Part shown: positions 1,678 to 9,193 of the stretch, in pieces | Layout of the letters: each line of letters begins with the position of its first letter | Position numbering within the stretch: the stretch's first letter is position 1 | Assembly: GCA_017994575.1 (NCBI GenBank) | Contig: JAGOKN010000016.1 | Location: forward strand, 1-44,120 | Source: Nitrosomonas sp. | Lineage (GTDB): Bacteria; Pseudomonadota; Gammaproteobacteria; Burkholderiales; Nitrosomonadaceae | Reading direction: 5' to 3' | DNA length: 44,120 nt | The notes under the pieces: generated by a model | The model's input: the letters and a program-made list of their open reading frames with translations, nothing else | Told to the model about the DNA's origin: nothing | Databases searched by the model: none | Made by a program: the position numbers and the translations under genes

Positions 1678-2946
1678 TTAAAAAACATAGCGTAAATTAA
1701 GGCCGCCTCCCCAATCGGGACTCCGTTCCGAAAGACCTCTCAGACCATAAATATTGAGCCTGAAATTATCGCTGATCCGTTGTGAAACATAGATACTGAT
1801 ATCTCGGGTGTCTTGCAGTTTTACCGGTGATTGACCCATGTTGTAACTGGTTCCTATACTGGTTCTTGATGACAATTGGTAACCAATTCCGGCGGCACCA
1901 TATAGCACGTTATGAAAAGTTACCCCGGCTGGATTGCCAAGCACACGATAGCCAAAAGTTGCGCTTAAGATGAAGCGCGAGATTGTTTTATACAGATCTC
2001 CCTGAATGGCAAAATCGACCTGACCGGTTCCTAGATTCCGACTGGCGCTGGCAGTAGGAATTTTTAAGCGGGTTGTAATATCAAATCCAATACCAGTTGG
2101 TGCATGGTCGATTAAATTGTAGCTAAATGCTGTGATGATATCGCCTAAACCTGATTGAGAAGATGTGGTCGTAGATGATCCTCCTAAAGGTATACCTCCC
2201 GTGATCCCCGAGGCGCTAATCTTGCTCTGTCTTCCAGAGTTATCGCTTTCGCTGCCGCTGTTGTCGTCACCGCCTCCTCCGCTGCTGCCACTGTCGCTGT
2301 TGTCGTCGTCGCCTCCGTTGCCACTGCCGCTGTTATCGTCACCGCCTCCGCCACTGCCACTACCGTTGTTATCGTCACCGCCTCCTCCGCCGCTGCCACT
2401 ACCGCTGTTATCGTCACCGCCTCCTCCGCTGCCACTGCCGCTGTTGTCGTCACCGCCTCCGTTGCCACTGCCGCTGTTATTGTCGTCATCGCCCCCGCTT
2501 CCACTACCGCTGTTGTCGTCGCCACCGCCGCTGCCGCTCCCACCACCGCTGTTATCATCATCGTTGTTTGAACAATCATCGTTTTCTTCATCACAAACAA
2601 CAATACCGCCTCCACCTCCACCGATTAAACCTCCACCAATGTCACCACCACCGATGATTGATCCTCTGCCATCGATGCCACCAATTCCGGGGCCAAGCAC
2701 ATTGCCCGGTCCTGTAATGTTCAGAAAAGGAACGATGACTCGGAAAGTTGCGCGTCCATTATCGTAGCGTGCCGTGAAAGGTGCATACCAAATATCAGTC
2801 GATGTGGCGCCACCATAATTACCCGTTGTAAAGTCGGTTGCAGCACTAAAGCTTAATCCATTGGCAGCTGATGCTGTAGAAGAACCATAAGCAAATACTA
2901 GCAGCAGAGCTAAGCTTGTCTGCTTAAATAAAAATGTTGAGTGCAT
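1678..2946 (-). CDS. outer-membrane beta-barrel protein with Gly/Ser/Asp repeat linker
   Basis: A 422-residue secreted protein. From ATG 2946 it opens with a clean signal peptide (FLFKQTSLALLLVFAYGSSTASA). A TTG at 2985 would add 13 residues before the signal; neither start has a clear Shine-Dalgarno. Residues about 20-90 are followed by a Gly-rich run and a CDEENDDC cysteine pair. Then come roughly 110 residues of DDNSGSGSGGGG-type repeats. The last 170 residues look like an outer-membrane barrel of the MetA-pathway/phenol-degradation type (PF13557-like), ending in an aromatic residue (NLRYVF), as barrels do. The linker splits the barrel-like segments, so it may form a long acidic surface or periplasmic loop. 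The function is unknown. It is the distal gene of a minus-strand group with the DUF5666-like and DUF6502-like genes, 436 bp away from the nearest. Confidence 0.7.
   Translation of the reverse strand: MHSTFLFKQTSLALLLVFAYGSSTASAANGLSFSAATDFTTGNYGGATSTDIWYAPFTARYDNGRATFRVIVPFLNITGPGNVLGPGIGGIDGRGSIIGGGDIGGGLIGGGGGGIVVCDEENDDCSNNDDDNSGGGSGSGGGDDNSGSGSGGDDDNNSGSGNGGGDDNSGSGSGGGGDDNSGSGSGGGGGDDNNGSGSGGGGDDNSGSGNGGDDDNSDSGSSGGGGDDNSGSESDNSGRQSKISASGITGGIPLGGSSTTTSSQSGLGDIITAFSYNLIDHAPTGIGFDITTRLKIPTASASRNLGTGQVDFAIQGDLYKTISRFILSATFGYRVLGNPAGVTFHNVLYGAAGIGYQLSSRTSIGTSYNMGQSPVKLQDTRDISIYVSQRISDNFRLNIYGLRGLSERSPDWGGGLNLRYVF
2240..2565. repeat. coding minisatellite (Gly/Ser/Asp linker)
   Basis: About ten imperfect tandem units of roughly 27-36 bp, reading on the minus strand as DDNSGSGSGGGG variants. 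The near-identical units (for example the TTGTCGTCACCGCCTCC type) make slippage and copy-number change likely. Confidence 0.8.
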
Positions 2947-3382
2947 AAGAATTGGGTTTAATTTGCGTGATTTAATCAAATTCAAAGAGAGTATTTAATA
3001 ATCAATGGCAACACTTATGGATAATTGGGTGATGATAGATATCATGTTGATATATACGTTATTTCCTACAGGGTGATTTATTTTTTCTTACGCAGAATAA
3101 AGCTATCTGTTTGAAAAGTAAATAAGTATTTTTCCTGTTTTTATCTCAATATTTGCTTGGAAAGAAATGAATAGATATTCTTTGTGCGTTTTATTGGATC
3201 AAGGCAACCATGAGAAAAATATAGCGTGATGATAACTCTGGAGTTGAATGACAGGTACTAGAGATCTCTGGTCAAGGGCCTGGCAAATTCAGTTTAGATT
3301 CAGCCAAAGTAATAGAAATTTCAGTGTTAGTGTTTTTTCAAGCAGAGAAAAATTTCGTATTTAATTTTTGATCGCCGCTATT
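2947..3382. other. non-coding gap upstream of the barrel gene
   Basis: This 436-bp AT-rich stretch should contain the barrel-gene promoter and the 3' end of the DUF5666 transcript. I see no gene and no convincing terminator or promoter. The only oddity is a small perfect palindrome AGAGATCTCT at 3260-3269. Confidence 0.4.
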
Positions 3383-5002
3383 TTATCGATCTACATGGCG
3401 ATCATGGTGTTCTCTGTGATCGCGGGTCCTATCAGGTACATCGAAATCTCGTTGAATATCCCCATGATCACGCACTTTGTCTGATAAATCGTTATCTCGG
3501 AGATCGTTATTCCGATGATCATTAGGTCTATCTGAAGAATCAGGTTCTCTTGCTTTTTCAGGTTTGTCCACGAGATCTTTTTGATTATCTGTAGAAGATC
3601 CTGAATGATCTGATTTGTTATCATCTTTAAATGAATGCGATGAGTCTTTTGAGCGATGATCACTATCGGAAGAAGAGCTTTTGCCGGAATTATTATTAAT
3701 TTCCCGTTTTAAAGCTCCTTTGTTGTCGTCATCATGCTCACTACCGCTGCGATTACTTCCGTTTTCTTTATAAGATTGGGTTTCAAGCTCATTATCTGAA
3801 TTGTTCTTTTTATCTTTGCTATCGTTATCTGAAATGCTTCTGTCATTTCTCTCGATAATTTGAATGGGTGATTCATTCTTTAACTCAATGCGCTCTGCAA
3901 TAATGCGCTGATCAGCACTTAATCTGCCACTGACTTGGATGCGTTGATCAGGTCTGAGATCATTTCTTGCATTACCTGTAGTGATTGGCGTACTAGAGTC
4001 AAGTGTGACTATTCGATTGCCCAAATTCAATTCTTTGCCATTGAGCGTGTGAACGAATCCTTCGATCACAATATGCTCTACAGCTCCGATGCTTTTACGC
4101 ATTGGTTCCATTTGGATCTGTTGTGCTCGCAGATTATTGCCATCCCAATGACCAGATACCGACACTTCCATGCCCTGAGAAATAGCTGAAGGGAGCTGTT
4201 TCATATCTAAATTGATACGAGTGCCATTGATTTCAAATCCTTTAGGATCAATTTGCGCGGCATGGCCATTTACTCTGGCTTCTGCGAGAGGAGAGCTTGT
4301 TTCAATACGCGATGCCACGATGGTTCCGCTTGCAAGTCTGTGCCCGCTGACTTGAATCCAATCGCCGGTTTTTAAGTTTGCAAAATTTGCATGATCTTTA
4401 GACTGATCAATGTGGACCGTTTGACCTAAAACATGCATTTTCCCGTTTTCATGATTAATACCGGTAATAGGACCGACTGCTGCATGAATGACAGCAATGT
4501 TGCTTGCTTTAAGTTCAGATCCTGTGTCCATTGCGCGTGCGGCAACTACCTGTCCCACTGCTAGATCACGAGCTTTAGATTGACGACCATCCACTGAGAC
4601 TGGTGTATCGGAATCATAGTGTATTTCAACGCCATTGACACAGATACTGGCAAAGCCAGTAATAACGCCAATAACTCCAGTACCACCGATACCGCCATCG
4701 CTCGCAACATTTCCAGTGCCACCAATTCCTCCTTCAGGATGCCCCGTACCTCCAATTCCACCGTTGTGAATGCCAGTGCCACCAATACCCGCTTGAGGAG
4801 TACCTGTGCCGCCGATGCCAGATTGAGGGGATCCCGTGCCTCCTATGCCTGATTGAATGAGAGCTGCAGGATTAACTAACGAAGTATTCGATTCACAGTT
4901 GCTTTTTGCTAACGCGCTGACTGAGTATATCAATAGCAATGCAGCGATACTCAATAAATGAGCAATACTCAGATATATCGCTGTATATGAAATTTGTCTC
5001 AT
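3383..5002 (-). CDS. secreted DUF5666-like repeat protein with charged tail
   Basis: A 539-residue exported protein. I start at ATG 5002, which gives MRQISYTAIYL and a signal peptide ending near SVSALA; a TTG at 5014 is possible. Residues about 45-110 carry six GIGGTG motifs. These are followed by about four beta-rich repeats of the DUF5666 type (for example GFASICVNGVEIHYD, VGQVVAARA, LKTGDWIQVSGH, LRPDQRIQVSGR), resembling small OB-like barrels. The last about 160 residues are low-complexity and very rich in Asp, Ser, Lys, Arg and His. The function is unknown. The gene lies 28 bp downstream of the DUF6502-like gene and is probably cotranscribed with it. The His/Asp tail suggests metal or polyanion binding at the cell surface, which is only inference. 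Confidence 0.7.
   Translation of the reverse strand: MRQISYTAIYLSIAHLLSIAALLLIYSVSALAKSNCESNTSLVNPAALIQSGIGGTGSPQSGIGGTGTPQAGIGGTGIHNGGIGGTGHPEGGIGGTGNVASDGGIGGTGVIGVITGFASICVNGVEIHYDSDTPVSVDGRQSKARDLAVGQVVAARAMDTGSELKASNIAVIHAAVGPITGINHENGKMHVLGQTVHIDQSKDHANFANLKTGDWIQVSGHRLASGTIVASRIETSSPLAEARVNGHAAQIDPKGFEINGTRINLDMKQLPSAISQGMEVSVSGHWDGNNLRAQQIQMEPMRKSIGAVEHIVIEGFVHTLNGKELNLGNRIVTLDSSTPITTGNARNDLRPDQRIQVSGRLSADQRIIAERIELKNESPIQIIERNDRSISDNDSKDKKNNSDNELETQSYKENGSNRSGSEHDDDNKGALKREINNNSGKSSSSDSDHRSKDSSHSFKDDNKSDHSGSSTDNQKDLVDKPEKAREPDSSDRPNDHRNNDLRDNDLSDKVRDHGDIQRDFDVPDRTRDHREHHDRHVDR
4674..4855. repeat. GIGGTG coding repeats
   Basis: Six near-identical copies of a 30-bp unit that reads on the minus strand as GIGGTG plus four variable residues. 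The unit is recognisable on the plus strand as CCAGTGCCACCAATACC variants. Confidence 0.8.
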
Positions 5003-5030
5003 TCTGTTTAGCAAGTTTATTTTTAGCTCA

Positions 5031-5930
5031 TTAGCTATGCGGATTAGCTTCTATTTCAGCGGACTCTTCAGATTCAATGGGTTCACTGAAATAGTAGATT
5101 CCGAATGTCATGCGATGGTGTGGACCACTTTGCAGTACATCGTTTTTTTCTAGCTCTATGGCCTCTTTATTGATAGCAAGAAGAGATTCCATTCCCAAAA
5201 GTTCAGATCTCTCTGCAAGTAGCTTTACTGACTCTGCGCTTAATTTATCGTAATAAACGCTTCGCTCCAGAAATGGTTGACTGACGCCTAATAAATTATT
5301 GGTGGCCGCTGCGGCATGATCATGTAAGTTATGGCCAAAGTAGTAAACTTTTTCGTCAAAACCATTGGCTGGAATAAATGCTGCGGTGTTGAGGCATACG
5401 CAGTTATCGTCATCAAAGCGAGCGATGCCAAGTCTTAACCATTCGTCAAGAACAACGCGTGATCGAATATCACAACTCACGCTGGCAACTAACCCCTCAA
5501 AAGAAATATCCCCTCCTTTTTTAGTAAATCTTGGCAAAGGCTTGGGTTGGTTGTTTTCGTCAAGATAACGGGCATCACTTGTCCAAAGACTGACTAGTCG
5601 AGCGCCTAATGAAACAGCTTGCGGGATAGTTTCTATATTTGAACGCGCGCACTGACGTAATCGCTTGATATCTTTTCGGTGAATGCCAGTAAGCAAGCTC
5701 AAGTGGCTATCGGTGGAGGGCTTATCTCCGATTCTGAATTCCTTTTCTGCTACTTCCACAAAAATATCTTTCAGCACCTCAGATAAATAGGGAAAGGTAA
5801 TTCCCTTTGCCAGCATCAACTTAATGAATGGGCGTAATACTCGGCGTAGTGCAGAAACAAGCGTTAATGAGAGAGTAGAGTTAATTTGACGAACACCATG
5901 CATATAAATTATCGGGTAAGTAAGTGACAT
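5031..5930 (-). CDS. DUF6502-like protein, possible winged-helix regulator
   Basis: A 299-residue cytoplasmic protein with no signal peptide. Residues about 25-95 (LRRVLRPFIKLMLAKG, SEVLKDIFVEVA, LTGIHRKDIKRLR) have the look of a helix-turn-helix or winged-helix fold. I recognise this as the DUF6502 type, though not with certainty. The start ATG at 5930 lacks a Shine-Dalgarno. The predicted extended -10 on the minus strand (5952-5960) would leave a leader of only about 15 nt. It is followed at 28 bp by the DUF5666-like gene. It is a reasonable candidate for the protein that binds the four palindromic boxes in the divergent spacer, one of which is directly upstream. That link is inferred from position only. 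Confidence 0.6.
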   Translation of the reverse strand: MSLTYPIIYMHGVRQINSTLSLTLVSALRRVLRPFIKLMLAKGITFPYLSEVLKDIFVEVAEKEFRIGDKPSTDSHLSLLTGIHRKDIKRLRQCARSNIETIPQAVSLGARLVSLWTSDARYLDENNQPKPLPRFTKKGGDISFEGLVASVSCDIRSRVVLDEWLRLGIARFDDDNCVCLNTAAFIPANGFDEKVYYFGHNLHDHAAAATNNLLGVSQPFLERSVYYDKLSAESVKLLAERSELLGMESLLAINKEAIELEKNDVLQSGPHHRMTFGIYYFSEPIESEESAEIEANPHS

Positions 5931-5951: not shown

Positions 5952-5960
5952 ATTCTAACA
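5952..5960 (-). promoter_or_regulatory. extended -10 for the DUF6502-like gene
   Basis: On the minus strand the sequence reads TGTTAGAAT, a TGnTAGAAT extended -10, about 22 bp before the start codon. There is no good -35; the first operator box covers that position. Confidence 0.45.
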
Positions 5961-5963
5961 TAA

Positions 5964-5982
5964 TGTGGGAAAATTTTACACA
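5964..5982. promoter_or_regulatory. operator box 1
   Basis: TGTGGGAAAATTTTACACA is an imperfect 19-bp palindrome centred on 5973. It is the copy nearest the DUF6502-like gene and lies over the expected -35 region of its promoter. Confidence 0.6.
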
Positions 5983-6085
5983 TTGTGATGATTGTTTATA
6001 TTAGTAGTATAGGTGTTCTGTTGCAGAATTGCTGAATTATAATATAAGTATAAGATATATATGTGTATTTCTGACCTCTATAAAA

Positions 6086-6104
6086 TGTGTGAATATTTTA
6101 CACA
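6086..6104. promoter_or_regulatory. operator box 2
   Basis: TGTGTGAATATTTTACACA matches box 1 at 17 of 19 positions. It is flanked by AAA and TTT, which extend the dyad. It lies mid-way between the divergent promoters. Confidence 0.6.
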
Positions 6105-6245
6105 TTTCCTGATGGAAGTGCTGATTATGAGATTGGCTATATCAAGCAACTTATATACATAAAGATTGAAAAAATCAAATAACACAGATAATTAATAAGG
6201 AAATAATGGTATTGGTAGGTTATAAGAGAAATCTTACAGAGCTGC

Positions 6246-6274
6246 TTGACATGGGAAAATTTCCCACGTATAGT
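6246..6274 (+). promoter_or_regulatory. sigma-70 promoter of the cupredoxin-propeller gene
   Basis: TTGACA (6246-6251), a 17-bp spacer and TATAGT (6269-6274) form a near-consensus sigma-70 promoter. Transcription would start near 6281, leaving a leader of about 97 nt. Operator boxes 3 and 4 cover its spacer and its start site, so repression is expected. Confidence 0.75.
6250..6268. promoter_or_regulatory. operator box 3 in the promoter spacer
   Basis: CATGGGAAAATTTCCCACG contains the perfect dyad TGGGAAA-A-TTTCCCA. It fills the spacer between the -35 and -10 hexamers, the classic place for a repressor. Confidence 0.65.
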
Positions 6275-6282
6275 TTAACTAT

Positions 6283-6301
6283 CGAGGGAAAATATCACAC
6301 A
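6283..6301. promoter_or_regulatory. operator box 4 at the transcription start
   Basis: CGAGGGAAAATATCACACA shares the GGGAAAAT core and the CACA end of the other boxes. It begins 33 bp after box 3, about three helical turns, so two dimers could bind the same face of the DNA. Confidence 0.55.
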
Positions 6302-6377: not shown

Positions 6378-8201
6378 ATGTTTAAAAATAATGATTTCAG
6401 GAAAGTTGTGAAAGCAATCGTTTCTGTATCGACAGTTTTGACTATTGCGTCAATCAATCATGCTGCTGCGGGAGATAACGAAGTTAGTTTTGAACTAACA
6501 GATAATCCAGGATCTTGGTTTGATACGGGTTCAGAGGTAGCAGGAAGTCGCTCTATTGCAATTGCATCACCTGGTGTGCGGGTCAAGTTTTCTGGCAATT
6601 CAAATACTGTGCATACAAGAAGCAGTTTGATCTTTCCAACGGGTGCCGCAAATATGCCATTTAATACAAAGCCTACAAAAGGTGGTGATGAAGTAACGCT
6701 GACCACGCCGGGCTTGTATGTTTTTACTTGTAGCATCCATCCTTACATGTTTGGTGCAGTGATTGTTGATAATCCAAATACAACTGGTTTAGATCTTGGG
6801 TCTTCCATTAGTTTGATCAATGGCATTACTGTTCCTACAAGTAGCGATCTGGCAACTCGCCTGCTGCGCACTTTCTTTATCGCAACCAATCCAGCTAATT
6901 GGCAAGACTACGCCAGTAATAATCCATGGCACATTACTTATCCTAATGTTGATGTGCGCGTCGATATTGGTGTGGTTAATCTACCGGATGTTTTGAATGC
7001 CCGATATGGCAATGATGTGTCATTAAGTGTACTGGAAAAACCTCAAACGCCCGCAATTGGTGAAATCTGGGTAGCTACTCAATTTGAAACCACCTCAGGA
7101 AAGGAAAAACCAGGTACCGTATCAGCTATTGATGGCGCTACTTGGCAAGTGACCCGTAAAGTAGCATTGCCTTCGATTGAAATGAATAATCCACACAATA
7201 TGTGGACTGATAAAAACCAAAATGTTATTTACGTAACGCAATGGTTTGATAAGAAATTAACCGTTTATGACCGCCAAACAGGTGCGCTGATTCGCAATGT
7301 ATCGGTCGGCGAAGCGCCAGCGCATGTCATGACCTTGACCGATTCAGATCGACTTCACATAACCAATAATGGTGATACGCGCACCGATTCAGTGATGGAA
7401 TTGTCTCCATTTGCAGCCAATGTACTGCGCAGAATTGATATTGGACGGGGTAATGCGCATGCGCATTGGATGAGCCATGATGGTAAAACCATGGTAACGC
7501 CTAATGTACTGACAGGCGACTCCACACAATACAATTTTCATACAAATCAGATTGAAGCCATTCTGCCGGTAAGCGGTCCTTTGAGTCATCCTCTGGCAAC
7601 AGGCATGATGCCGGACGCAAGCAAATATTATGTGGCTAATTTGCTGGATAGCACACTGGCCGTTGTGAACATGGATACGCATCAGGTTACTAAACATATC
7701 AATTTGATTGAAAACTATAACCCAGTGTCGGGCGAAATTGCTGGACCCGTAGGTGCACTGCCGATTCAAACGCCTGTTTCTCCCGATGGGAAAAATATGG
7801 TTACTGCCAATACACTGACCGGTACGATAACTATTGTTGATACCGGTACCGATGAAATGGTTGCCATGCTGCCTTGCGATCCCGGTTGTCACGGTGTGCA
7901 ATATGGTGCCAAGAAAGGAGGCGGCTACTACGCTTATGTTTCAAGCAAATTCTCGAACAGAATGCTAGTGGTTGATCCCGATCCTAATGGCGATGGAAAT
8001 CCAGTCGATGCCAAGATTGTAGGCAAGATTGGATTATTTTCAGCCAGCACCACAAAAATGGATGACAGCATTAAAGGTAATCCAGGCATGGGTGGACAAG
8101 GCATTCTGCCAATTCCTGTCGTGTATAACGGCTGGGTTCAGAATCTACCGGATGCTTGGAGTAAGCAATTGACTGCAGCGCAACAAGATCCAATTAAATA
8201 G
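6378..8201 (+). CDS. periplasmic cupredoxin fused to a His-rich beta-propeller
   Basis: A 607-residue exported protein with a strong Shine-Dalgarno (GAGGAGGGG) before ATG 6378 and a signal peptide ending near HAAAG (residue 32). Residues about 35-132 form a cupredoxin. The type-1 copper ligands are readable as His79, Cys118, His121 and Met124 (CSIHPYM, the short C-x2-H-x2-M loop of amicyanin). Residues about 225-590 are YVTN/NHL-like propeller blades (WVATQF, VYVTQWF, YYVANL, MVTANTL, YAYVSSKF). His residues recur at blade starts: 273, 316, 361/363, 404 and 505. C500-DPG-C504-H505 is a CX3CH motif, not a canonical CXXCH. The protein probably transfers electrons or handles copper in the periplasm, and a second metal site on the propeller is possible. 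The substrate is unknown. It is divergent from the DUF6502-like gene, under an operator-covered promoter, and 95 bp before the RTX-like gene. Confidence 0.75.
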   Translation: MFKNNDFRKVVKAIVSVSTVLTIASINHAAAGDNEVSFELTDNPGSWFDTGSEVAGSRSIAIASPGVRVKFSGNSNTVHTRSSLIFPTGAANMPFNTKPTKGGDEVTLTTPGLYVFTCSIHPYMFGAVIVDNPNTTGLDLGSSISLINGITVPTSSDLATRLLRTFFIATNPANWQDYASNNPWHITYPNVDVRVDIGVVNLPDVLNARYGNDVSLSVLEKPQTPAIGEIWVATQFETTSGKEKPGTVSAIDGATWQVTRKVALPSIEMNNPHNMWTDKNQNVIYVTQWFDKKLTVYDRQTGALIRNVSVGEAPAHVMTLTDSDRLHITNNGDTRTDSVMELSPFAANVLRRIDIGRGNAHAHWMSHDGKTMVTPNVLTGDSTQYNFHTNQIEAILPVSGPLSHPLATGMMPDASKYYVANLLDSTLAVVNMDTHQVTKHINLIENYNPVSGEIAGPVGALPIQTPVSPDGKNMVTANTLTGTITIVDTGTDEMVAMLPCDPGCHGVQYGAKKGGGYYAYVSSKFSNRMLVVDPDPNGDGNPVDAKIVGKIGLFSASTTKMDDSIKGNPGMGGQGILPIPVVYNGWVQNLPDAWSKQLTAAQQDPIK

Positions 8202-8296: not shown

Positions 8297-9193
8297 ATGA
8301 GCTCAGGCGATGACGATTTAAATGATGATTCATCAAGCAGTCACAAACAATACACATTCACAATCGATAATGGCGTAGTGACCGCTTACTTTGAAGTTGA
8401 GAATGGAATAACCGAGCGGGAATCAATCGATAGCAGAGATTCCTTTGTGATCAACGGAAATCAGATTACTCATACCAAACAGACATCTGATGGACCGGAA
8501 GTAACCATCTTTTCCGATCCAGATGCGGATGGGTTTTACAAAGTCACTTCTGATTCCAATGATGATAATGGCAGACCTGGCGACGGTGACCACAAGGCTT
8601 ATAAATTCACCGTTGAGAATGGCAAAGTAGTCGCTGTTTTTGAACGTGATGATGGCGTGTGGGAGCAAAAATCAATTGATGACGATGGCACTGAAACTTA
8701 TACAGTTGAAAGTAATGGCGATGTGACCCGCACGGAAGTTAAACCTTTCGGCACAGAAATCACGCGTTATTCAGATACTGATGGCGATTTGGTTTTCAAT
8801 CGCGTTTCTGAACACTGGCAAAATGGACCCAATGCCCCTGGCAGTGGACATTTTGTGCTTGAAGATAATCTGAGATTTTCTCACTCTGATGATGACGATC
8901 TGATTGCGGTCCGTAGTGGTGAAGATTGCCATGGCGGCGGCGGATCCGATGATTTTGTCATTCGCGAGGCGGCGCATTTGCGCATCGCGGATTTTAATGG
9001 GAATGAAGACGACTCGCTGGTATTTGATACGGGATTGGGTCTTACCTCTGTGCAGCATCTGATAGGTTTTGTGACCGATGTTCATTATGAAGGTGAGGAT
9101 CTTATTGTCAGTTTTGGATCCGATGTGTCAATCACCATAGTCGGCCTACAGCCTGATCAAGCCAGTTGGGACAATGTCAGCGTTCTGAGCTAA
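8297..9193 (+). CDS. acidic RTX-like protein, probable type I secretion substrate
   Basis: A 298-residue, strongly acidic protein without an N-terminal signal. It is preceded by AGGAG about 8 bp before ATG 8297. Two tandem copies of a domain of about 80 residues are visible (YTFTIDNGVVTAYFEVENG and YKFTVENGKVVAVFERDDG), each ending in an Asp-rich turn (DPDADGFYKV, DTDGDLVFNRV). The C-terminal about 110 residues (GGGGSDDFVIRE, IADFNGNEDDSLVFD, then hydrophobic strands) look like a degenerate RTX repeat plus the C-terminal region of type I secreted proteins. Calcium binding and export by an ABC/MFP/TolC system are inferred. No dedicated secretion genes lie beside it, although an ABC exporter follows at 10511. 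It is probably cotranscribed with the cupredoxin gene. Confidence 0.55.
   Translation: MSSGDDDLNDDSSSSHKQYTFTIDNGVVTAYFEVENGITERESIDSRDSFVINGNQITHTKQTSDGPEVTIFSDPDADGFYKVTSDSNDDNGRPGDGDHKAYKFTVENGKVVAVFERDDGVWEQKSIDDDGTETYTVESNGDVTRTEVKPFGTEITRYSDTDGDLVFNRVSEHWQNGPNAPGSGHFVLEDNLRFSHSDDDDLIAVRSGEDCHGGGGSDDFVIREAAHLRIADFNGNEDDSLVFDTGLGLTSVQHLIGFVTDVHYEGEDLIVSFGSDVSITIVGLQPDQASWDNVSVLS

Follow-up and report, generated by a model that had tools for sequence, protein, structure and literature searches.

The window analysed here, by which we mean the whole stretch of 44,120 nucleotides, is contig C71 of a 2.86 Mb Nitrosomonas genome. Its minus strand carries a gene of the DUF6502 family and, after it, genes for a DUF5666 protein and a probable outer-membrane barrel, and a beta-propeller gene is divergent from the DUF6502 gene on the plus strand:

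1678..2985, minus strand: probable outer-membrane beta-barrel protein, third in the gene set; its position matches that of an annotated outer membrane beta-barrel gene in Methylocystis, and the likeness was judged by eye
3383..5014, minus strand: DUF5666 protein (PF18914, E 2.7e-31), adjoining the DUF6502 gene
5031..5930, minus strand: DUF6502 protein (PF20112, E 8.8e-30), the proposed regulator
6378..8201, plus strand: cupredoxin-like and YncE-like beta-propeller protein (YNCE, E 1.4e-6; weak amicyanin match, E 0.024), the proposed target
8297..9193, plus strand: acidic protein, function not assigned, downstream of the propeller gene; similar-looking proteins, by eye, lie beside sites in relatives

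The preliminary description of this DNA had called the protein encoded at 5031..5930 DUF6502-like, and it is indeed a member of that family, scoring 103.9 bits against PF20112 where the cut-off is 27 and covering profile positions 4-263 of 268. Among the best 80 of 562 loci confirmed by scan, the nearest named DUF6502 protein is 97% identical and comes from a Nitrosomonas MAG. The order DUF6502-DUF5666 recurs in many relatives and in Methylocystis, and Methylocystis iwaonis, which belongs to another class, has the same three-gene order, with an outer membrane barrel gene next in line after DUF6502 and DUF5666. The barrel-like protein of the window has no match in a Pfam search and carries a long GGGDDN-type repeat; a long reading frame opposite its gene (2165-2767) is probably spurious. 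The propeller protein scores 35.6 bits against the NCBIfam model of lactonase-type nitrous-oxide reductase, far under membership at a cut-off of 700, and other propeller models also match it.

Operator boxes and predicted promoters

Between the two divergent genes lie four boxes, together with the predicted promoter elements on which they fall. The operator consensus is YGTGGGAAAWTTTCCCACR.

5952..5960, minus strand (read from 5960 down to 5952): predicted extended -10 of the DUF6502 promoter, TGTTAGAAT, at offset 3 after box 1
5964..5982: operator box 1, TGTGGGAAAATTTTACACA, matrix score 25.7, over the -35/spacer region of the DUF6502 promoter
6086..6104: operator box 2, TGTGTGAATATTTTACACA, matrix score 23.1, between both promoters
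6246..6251, plus strand: predicted -35 of the propeller promoter, TTGACA, recurrent architecture
6250..6268: operator box 3, CATGGGAAAATTTCCCACG, matrix score 26.5, in the 17-bp spacer of the propeller promoter
6269..6274, plus strand: predicted -10 of the propeller promoter, TATAGT, recurrent architecture
6283..6301: operator box 4, CGAGGGAAAATATCACACA, matrix score 23.1, over the predicted start site and 33 bp from box 3

The preliminary description had reported four copies of a 19-bp palindrome here, and a check of the sequence finds each of them at these positions. That they form a real set of dyads is borne out by a position matrix made from 40 distinct sites of relatives, the window itself being excluded and the picking of sites being seeded with the window boxes: against the four scores listed, the next best place in the window reaches 11.8, and 100 shuffles of the window give 4 places of at least 18 in total, the best at 22.3. 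A loose string search of the window does no better than chance, with 5 matches against 3.9 expected and 37 of 100 shuffles reaching 5, because boxes 3 and 4 depart from the string, and the position matrix was therefore adopted. The dyad of box 2, around which no clear promoter was seen, is kept in a relative whose DUF6502 protein is 97% identical (L086).

The predicted promoters bear out what had been proposed for the placement of the other three boxes. The propeller promoter has a spacer of 17 bp and 11 of 12 matches; box 3 fills this spacer and, as drawn, overlaps the final two bases of the -35, and box 4 starts 9 bp beyond the end of the -10, on the predicted start site. On the other strand the extended -10 follows box 1, which places this box over the -35 and spacer of the DUF6502 promoter; the -35 read there from the sequence is a weak TGTAAA. 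The register of box 3 is the same in relatives and at other targets: a search of 192 site-strand contexts (54 loci) for TTGAC(A/G)-like and -10-like hexamers placed so as to leave the box in a spacer of 17 bp gave 28 with at least 9 of 12 matches, and 0 or 1 in every one of ten shifted registers. Two of the 12 positions lie inside the box itself and favour the true register in this comparison, and orthologous sites do not count as independent. A proximal box with a -10 after it recurs in relatives too, and of the 70 loci that have a proximal box 18 show the extended -10 at the same offset, 15 of these 18 belonging to the Nitrosomonas group.

Since box 3 lies between the -35 and the -10 and box 4 over the predicted start site, while box 1 occupies the DUF6502 promoter, a bound protein would block the polymerase at both promoters, and this layout favours repression. 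One might suppose instead that DUF6502 binds the boxes and activates, or that it both activates and represses; the DUF6502 promoter has the poor -35 and extended -10 that activated promoters can have, and an activator might likewise make use of several boxes at one promoter. However, sites of the box 3 type fill the optimal 17-bp spacer of near-consensus promoters, for which no activator should be needed, and the predicted start site lies under box 4; we regard activation as unlikely. MerR-type regulators also bind an operator within the -35/-10 spacer, and their promoters have spacers of 19-20 bp and are activated by twisting; kinship with them was rejected on the spacing of 17 bp here, and Pfam finds no MerR domain. 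A terminator scan flags 6252-6266, which would allow box 3 to be an RNA hairpin or a terminator and not an operator; yet this segment lies upstream of the predicted start site, within the promoter, and the boxes recur in clusters at fixed spacings. The terminator-like call was rejected, and we give this reading practically no credence.

Conservation of the boxes beside DUF6502 genes

The preliminary description had staked its case on the boxes being conserved in relatives, and they are: sites lie upstream of DUF6502 in 19 of the 20 relatives whose upstream region was examined, a count made without one gene cut by a contig end (L022) and without two paralogues (L023, L024). The usual arrangement in relatives is two or three boxes at intervals of typically 27-29 and 32-35 bp, or else a pair separated by 58-63 bp; L018 and the window have a wider gap between the promoters, with boxes retained at each. 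The sole exception among the 20, the locus of genome G024 (L016), has DUF6502 without any site. The gene in the usual DUF5666 place is short there (116 amino acids), and this is possibly a decaying copy.

The named loci, taken as the best 80 of 562 confirmed by scan, extend this pattern. A site scoring at least 18 lies within 300 bp upstream in 24 of the 28 loci of the Nitrosomonas group and in 42 of the 52 loci outside it, with 0.03 expected by shuffling in either case; other tiles of the same loci gave 3 of 663 and 22 of 1208, respectively, and among the matches listed many of these other-tile sites precede neighbouring genes, such as the one in Pseudomonas that stands before DUF6502 and encodes a secreted-looking, glycine-rich protein. 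Nothing scoring at least 9 was found within about 400 bp in seven of the 80 loci (L099, L100, L112, L153, L156, L160 and L165); in L112, L153, L156 and L160, strong sites lie at a greater distance upstream. Two loci, L099 and L100, carry DUF6502 without any operator.

The operator persists where the divergent gene is a different one, and it accompanies DUF6502 in Pseudomonas, Azoarcus, Rhodoferax, Gallionellaceae and Methylocystis; Methylocystis iwaonis has three boxes, one of them weak at 10.9. The autoregulation that had been suggested for the DUF6502-like protein is thus supported by a dyad that lies in its own predicted promoter and is conserved with its gene. None of the three Rhizobium plasmids has the site; in two of them (L317, L319) DUF6502 and the gene next to it stand beside flagellar hook genes, with no recognisable operator. 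In L093 the same pair of boxes occurs twice, at 640-719 and 4788-4867, about 4.1 kb apart and, by eye, with a transposase-like frame between, which suggests a duplicated promoter segment.

Distribution of the sites across genomes and candidate targets

DUF6502-positive genomes of the genus also hold clustered sites away from the DUF6502 gene. With a cluster taken as two sites within 80 bp and 150 first-look candidates scored per genome by the sequence model (G003, G004, G009, G014, G015, G025 and G036 being left out of candidate scoring), clusters occur in 15 of 17 DUF6502-positive genomes and in 0 of 13 negative ones, a difference for which the Fisher p of 1.8e-6 overstates independence, since the genomes are related and clusters at the DUF6502 loci were in the training set. 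Total places number 72 in positive and 5 in negative genomes, the latter being lone places in 4 of the 13; two of these, L210 and L211, by eye lie inside a long transporter-like frame, and the others are those of G001 and G035 and a second place in G012. In the positive genomes, the lone places L203-L206 and L083, within reading frames, are probably due to chance. By string search, five positive genomes had 10, 7, 9, 6 and 2 places; 16 negative genomes had 0-3 each, as against 0-2 for the reversed-pattern control there, and none of the 16 had a pair of sites. The positive genome with 2 matches (G016) is within the range of the negative ones.

These distributions also bear on the chance that the boxes belong to a familiar regulator such as CRP/FNR or TyrR. 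The CRP/FNR operator is TGTGA-N6-TCACA, and boxes 1 and 2, which start with TGTG and end with CACA, recall it; but their arms are 11 bp apart (TGTG-N11-CACA) against 8 for CRP, the core being TGGGA-N5-TCCCA, and clusters are absent from all 13 of the DUF6502-negative genomes. CRP kinship was rejected on this spacing, and we consider assignment to any such regulator very improbable.

The propeller gene was sought in 22 relatives of the genus, G023-G036 being excluded and the copies in G003 and G004 being cut at their start by a contig end. Close propeller homologues in four DUF6502-negative genomes (G022, G020, G011 and G018) have no site within 700 bp, in keeping with the view that the boxes go with DUF6502 and not with the propeller alone. 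Propeller and DUF6502 are on different contigs in two genomes: in G008 three boxes lie about 460-525 bp upstream of the propeller gene, before a small gene, and in G009 two boxes precede the gene for an acidic protein directly upstream, beyond the 700 bp scanned. No good site was found at the propeller copies of the DUF6502-positive genomes G016 and G006 or at the second copies in G005 and G008.

Many of the genes that adjoin sites encode secreted-looking or envelope proteins, including small signal-peptide-like, GH42-like, RTX-repeat and PEP-CTERM proteins and an alginate-export barrel; a LuxR-type response regulator and a glycosyltransferase are also among them. The divergent gene in G016 encodes a multihaem cytochrome and is followed by one for an MtrB/PioB barrel, and the nearest long divergent frame in G008, some 500 bp off, encodes a di-haem cytochrome c peroxidase. 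At the G016 locus (L085, 4278-7342) the cytochrome that the boxes precede is NrfB/MtrA-like, and together with the barrel it has the appearance of an extracellular electron conduit. The string search found 0 places in N. marina, 3 in N. ureae and 6 in N. oligotropha; eleven named genomes outside Nitrosomonas had 1-3 places each, and control there therefore looks local.

Operator spacing across the family

Of the 274 genomes sampled in the class, 76 carry PF20112, and none of 14 control genomes does. The first class-wide loci (30 given, 22 readable) yielded one weak matrix match, at 11.3; their dyads showed a variant with a spacer of six, and spacings from 2 to 11 were therefore tested on 86 genes, drawn from 102 listed matches after leaving out 16 that were fragments, extra pieces or the window's own gene. 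The exact core TGGGA-Nx-TCCCA was found within 250 bp upstream at x=5 in 11 and at x=6 in 21 of the 86 genes, and none was found upstream at x=2-4 or 7-11; at N5 and N6 the downstream control gave 0, as did four rounds of shuffling. Allowing at most one mismatch raises the counts to 15 for N5 and 32 for N6, or 47 of the 86, with 0-3 at other spacings, 0 and 1 downstream and about 1 in shuffles, and leaves 39 genes with no such site. At two mismatches N4 (23) and N7 (31) also rise, as expected for register neighbours.

Laid over the DUF6502 tree, the spacing needs two parsimony changes among 65 labelled tips, one of them a weak site in L165, so the split between N5 and N6 is, by parsimony, essentially one event. 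Just before the predicted recognition helix the N5 types have H84 in 71 of 71, and 33 of 34 N6 types have T, S, N or D; a link of residue 84 to operator spacing is suggestive only, because the correlation rests on one deep split and 20 other positions are also listed as differing. A different transcription factor that is usually inherited along with DUF6502 might be the one that binds the boxes, and the locus in G024, with DUF6502 present and boxes absent, would fit such an arrangement; yet the site accompanies DUF6502 across all five of the groups named above, from Pseudomonas to Methylocystis, and operator spacing tracks the DUF6502 tree, and we think it quite improbable. It is DUF6502 itself that we take as the best candidate for the binding protein, and that the four boxes are real operators for it we hold with considerable confidence.

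The DUF6502 protein

A structure model of the window protein, built with 51 sequences, has a mean pLDDT of 82 and a pTM of 0.65, the five models ranging over 69-82. Predicted helices at 46-64, 74-81 and 85-97 include a candidate helix-turn-helix (74-97; pLDDT 95-96 at 71-90 and 73 at 91-100), which would provide the DNA-binding fold, and a winged-helix-like unit is predicted at 144-180 (pLDDT 87-96 at 141-180). Foldseek against the PDB, with the full and the trimmed model, gave no match at an E of 0.001 or below, and a sequence search of the PDB gave none. Weak Foldseek matches include many helix-turn-helix regulators, as well as HetR and TrpR, helical DNA-binding proteins that bind palindromes, at an E of about 1 or worse; such matches are not evidence of kinship. 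In Pfam at an E of 0.01 or below PF20112 is the sole match, with none to TetR, MarR, GntR, LysR or MerR families. Autorepressors of the TetR/MarR style have dyad operators inside divergent promoters, and DUF6502 resembles them in having a palindromic dyad over its own promoter and a divergent target; it differs in the lack of these Pfam matches and of any significant fold match.

Discussion

The best explanation of these patterns, judged from sequence, is that DUF6502 is a family of transcription factors whose members bind the boxes and are probably autorepressors. Each 19-bp dyad would be bound by a dimer or larger form of DUF6502, with the predicted helix-turn-helix around residues 74-97 as the probable contact, and since the distances between boxes, about 28 and 33 bp, come close to three helical turns, the bound proteins could sit side by side on one face of the DNA, from which we infer cooperative binding. 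Protein at boxes 3, 4 and 1 would then keep RNA polymerase from both promoters, so that DUF6502 likely represses its own gene and the divergent one until some signal releases it; control of the propeller gene by the boxes is what we infer from their placement. Electron-transfer genes among the targets suggest, as speculation, that the signal might be a redox or metal cue.

Beyond what the preliminary description saw, the boxes appear from their distribution to form a regulon and a family-wide operator. More tentatively, and with rather less than even confidence, we propose that DUF6502 founds a separate family of transcription factors, with a fold not close to that of any solved regulator and with TGGGA-N5-TCCCA and TGGGA-N6-TCCCA branches, and that it steers an envelope module made up of DUF5666 and an outer-membrane barrel, to which some Nitrosomonas would add electron carriers of the copper or haem type, an MtrAB-like conduit among them, the periplasmic redox state perhaps being the signal.

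Pfam describes PF20112 as a family of unknown function, while here a member is assigned a putative operator and candidate targets, and the plasmid annotations shown say simply 'DUF6502 family protein' or 'hypothetical protein'. In the one literature collection searched we found no mention of DUF6502, PF20112 or GGGAAAATTTCCC; DUF5666 is mentioned there. With sites before its gene in many proteobacteria, the DUF6502 family looks like a widespread regulator that is not described in that literature. An operator and a set of candidate targets make DUF6502, a family of no given function in more than a quarter of the sampled genomes of the class, directly testable, and the operator would offer a way into the equally obscure DUF5666 and into the envelope genes found with it in Nitrosomonas and the pseudomonads.
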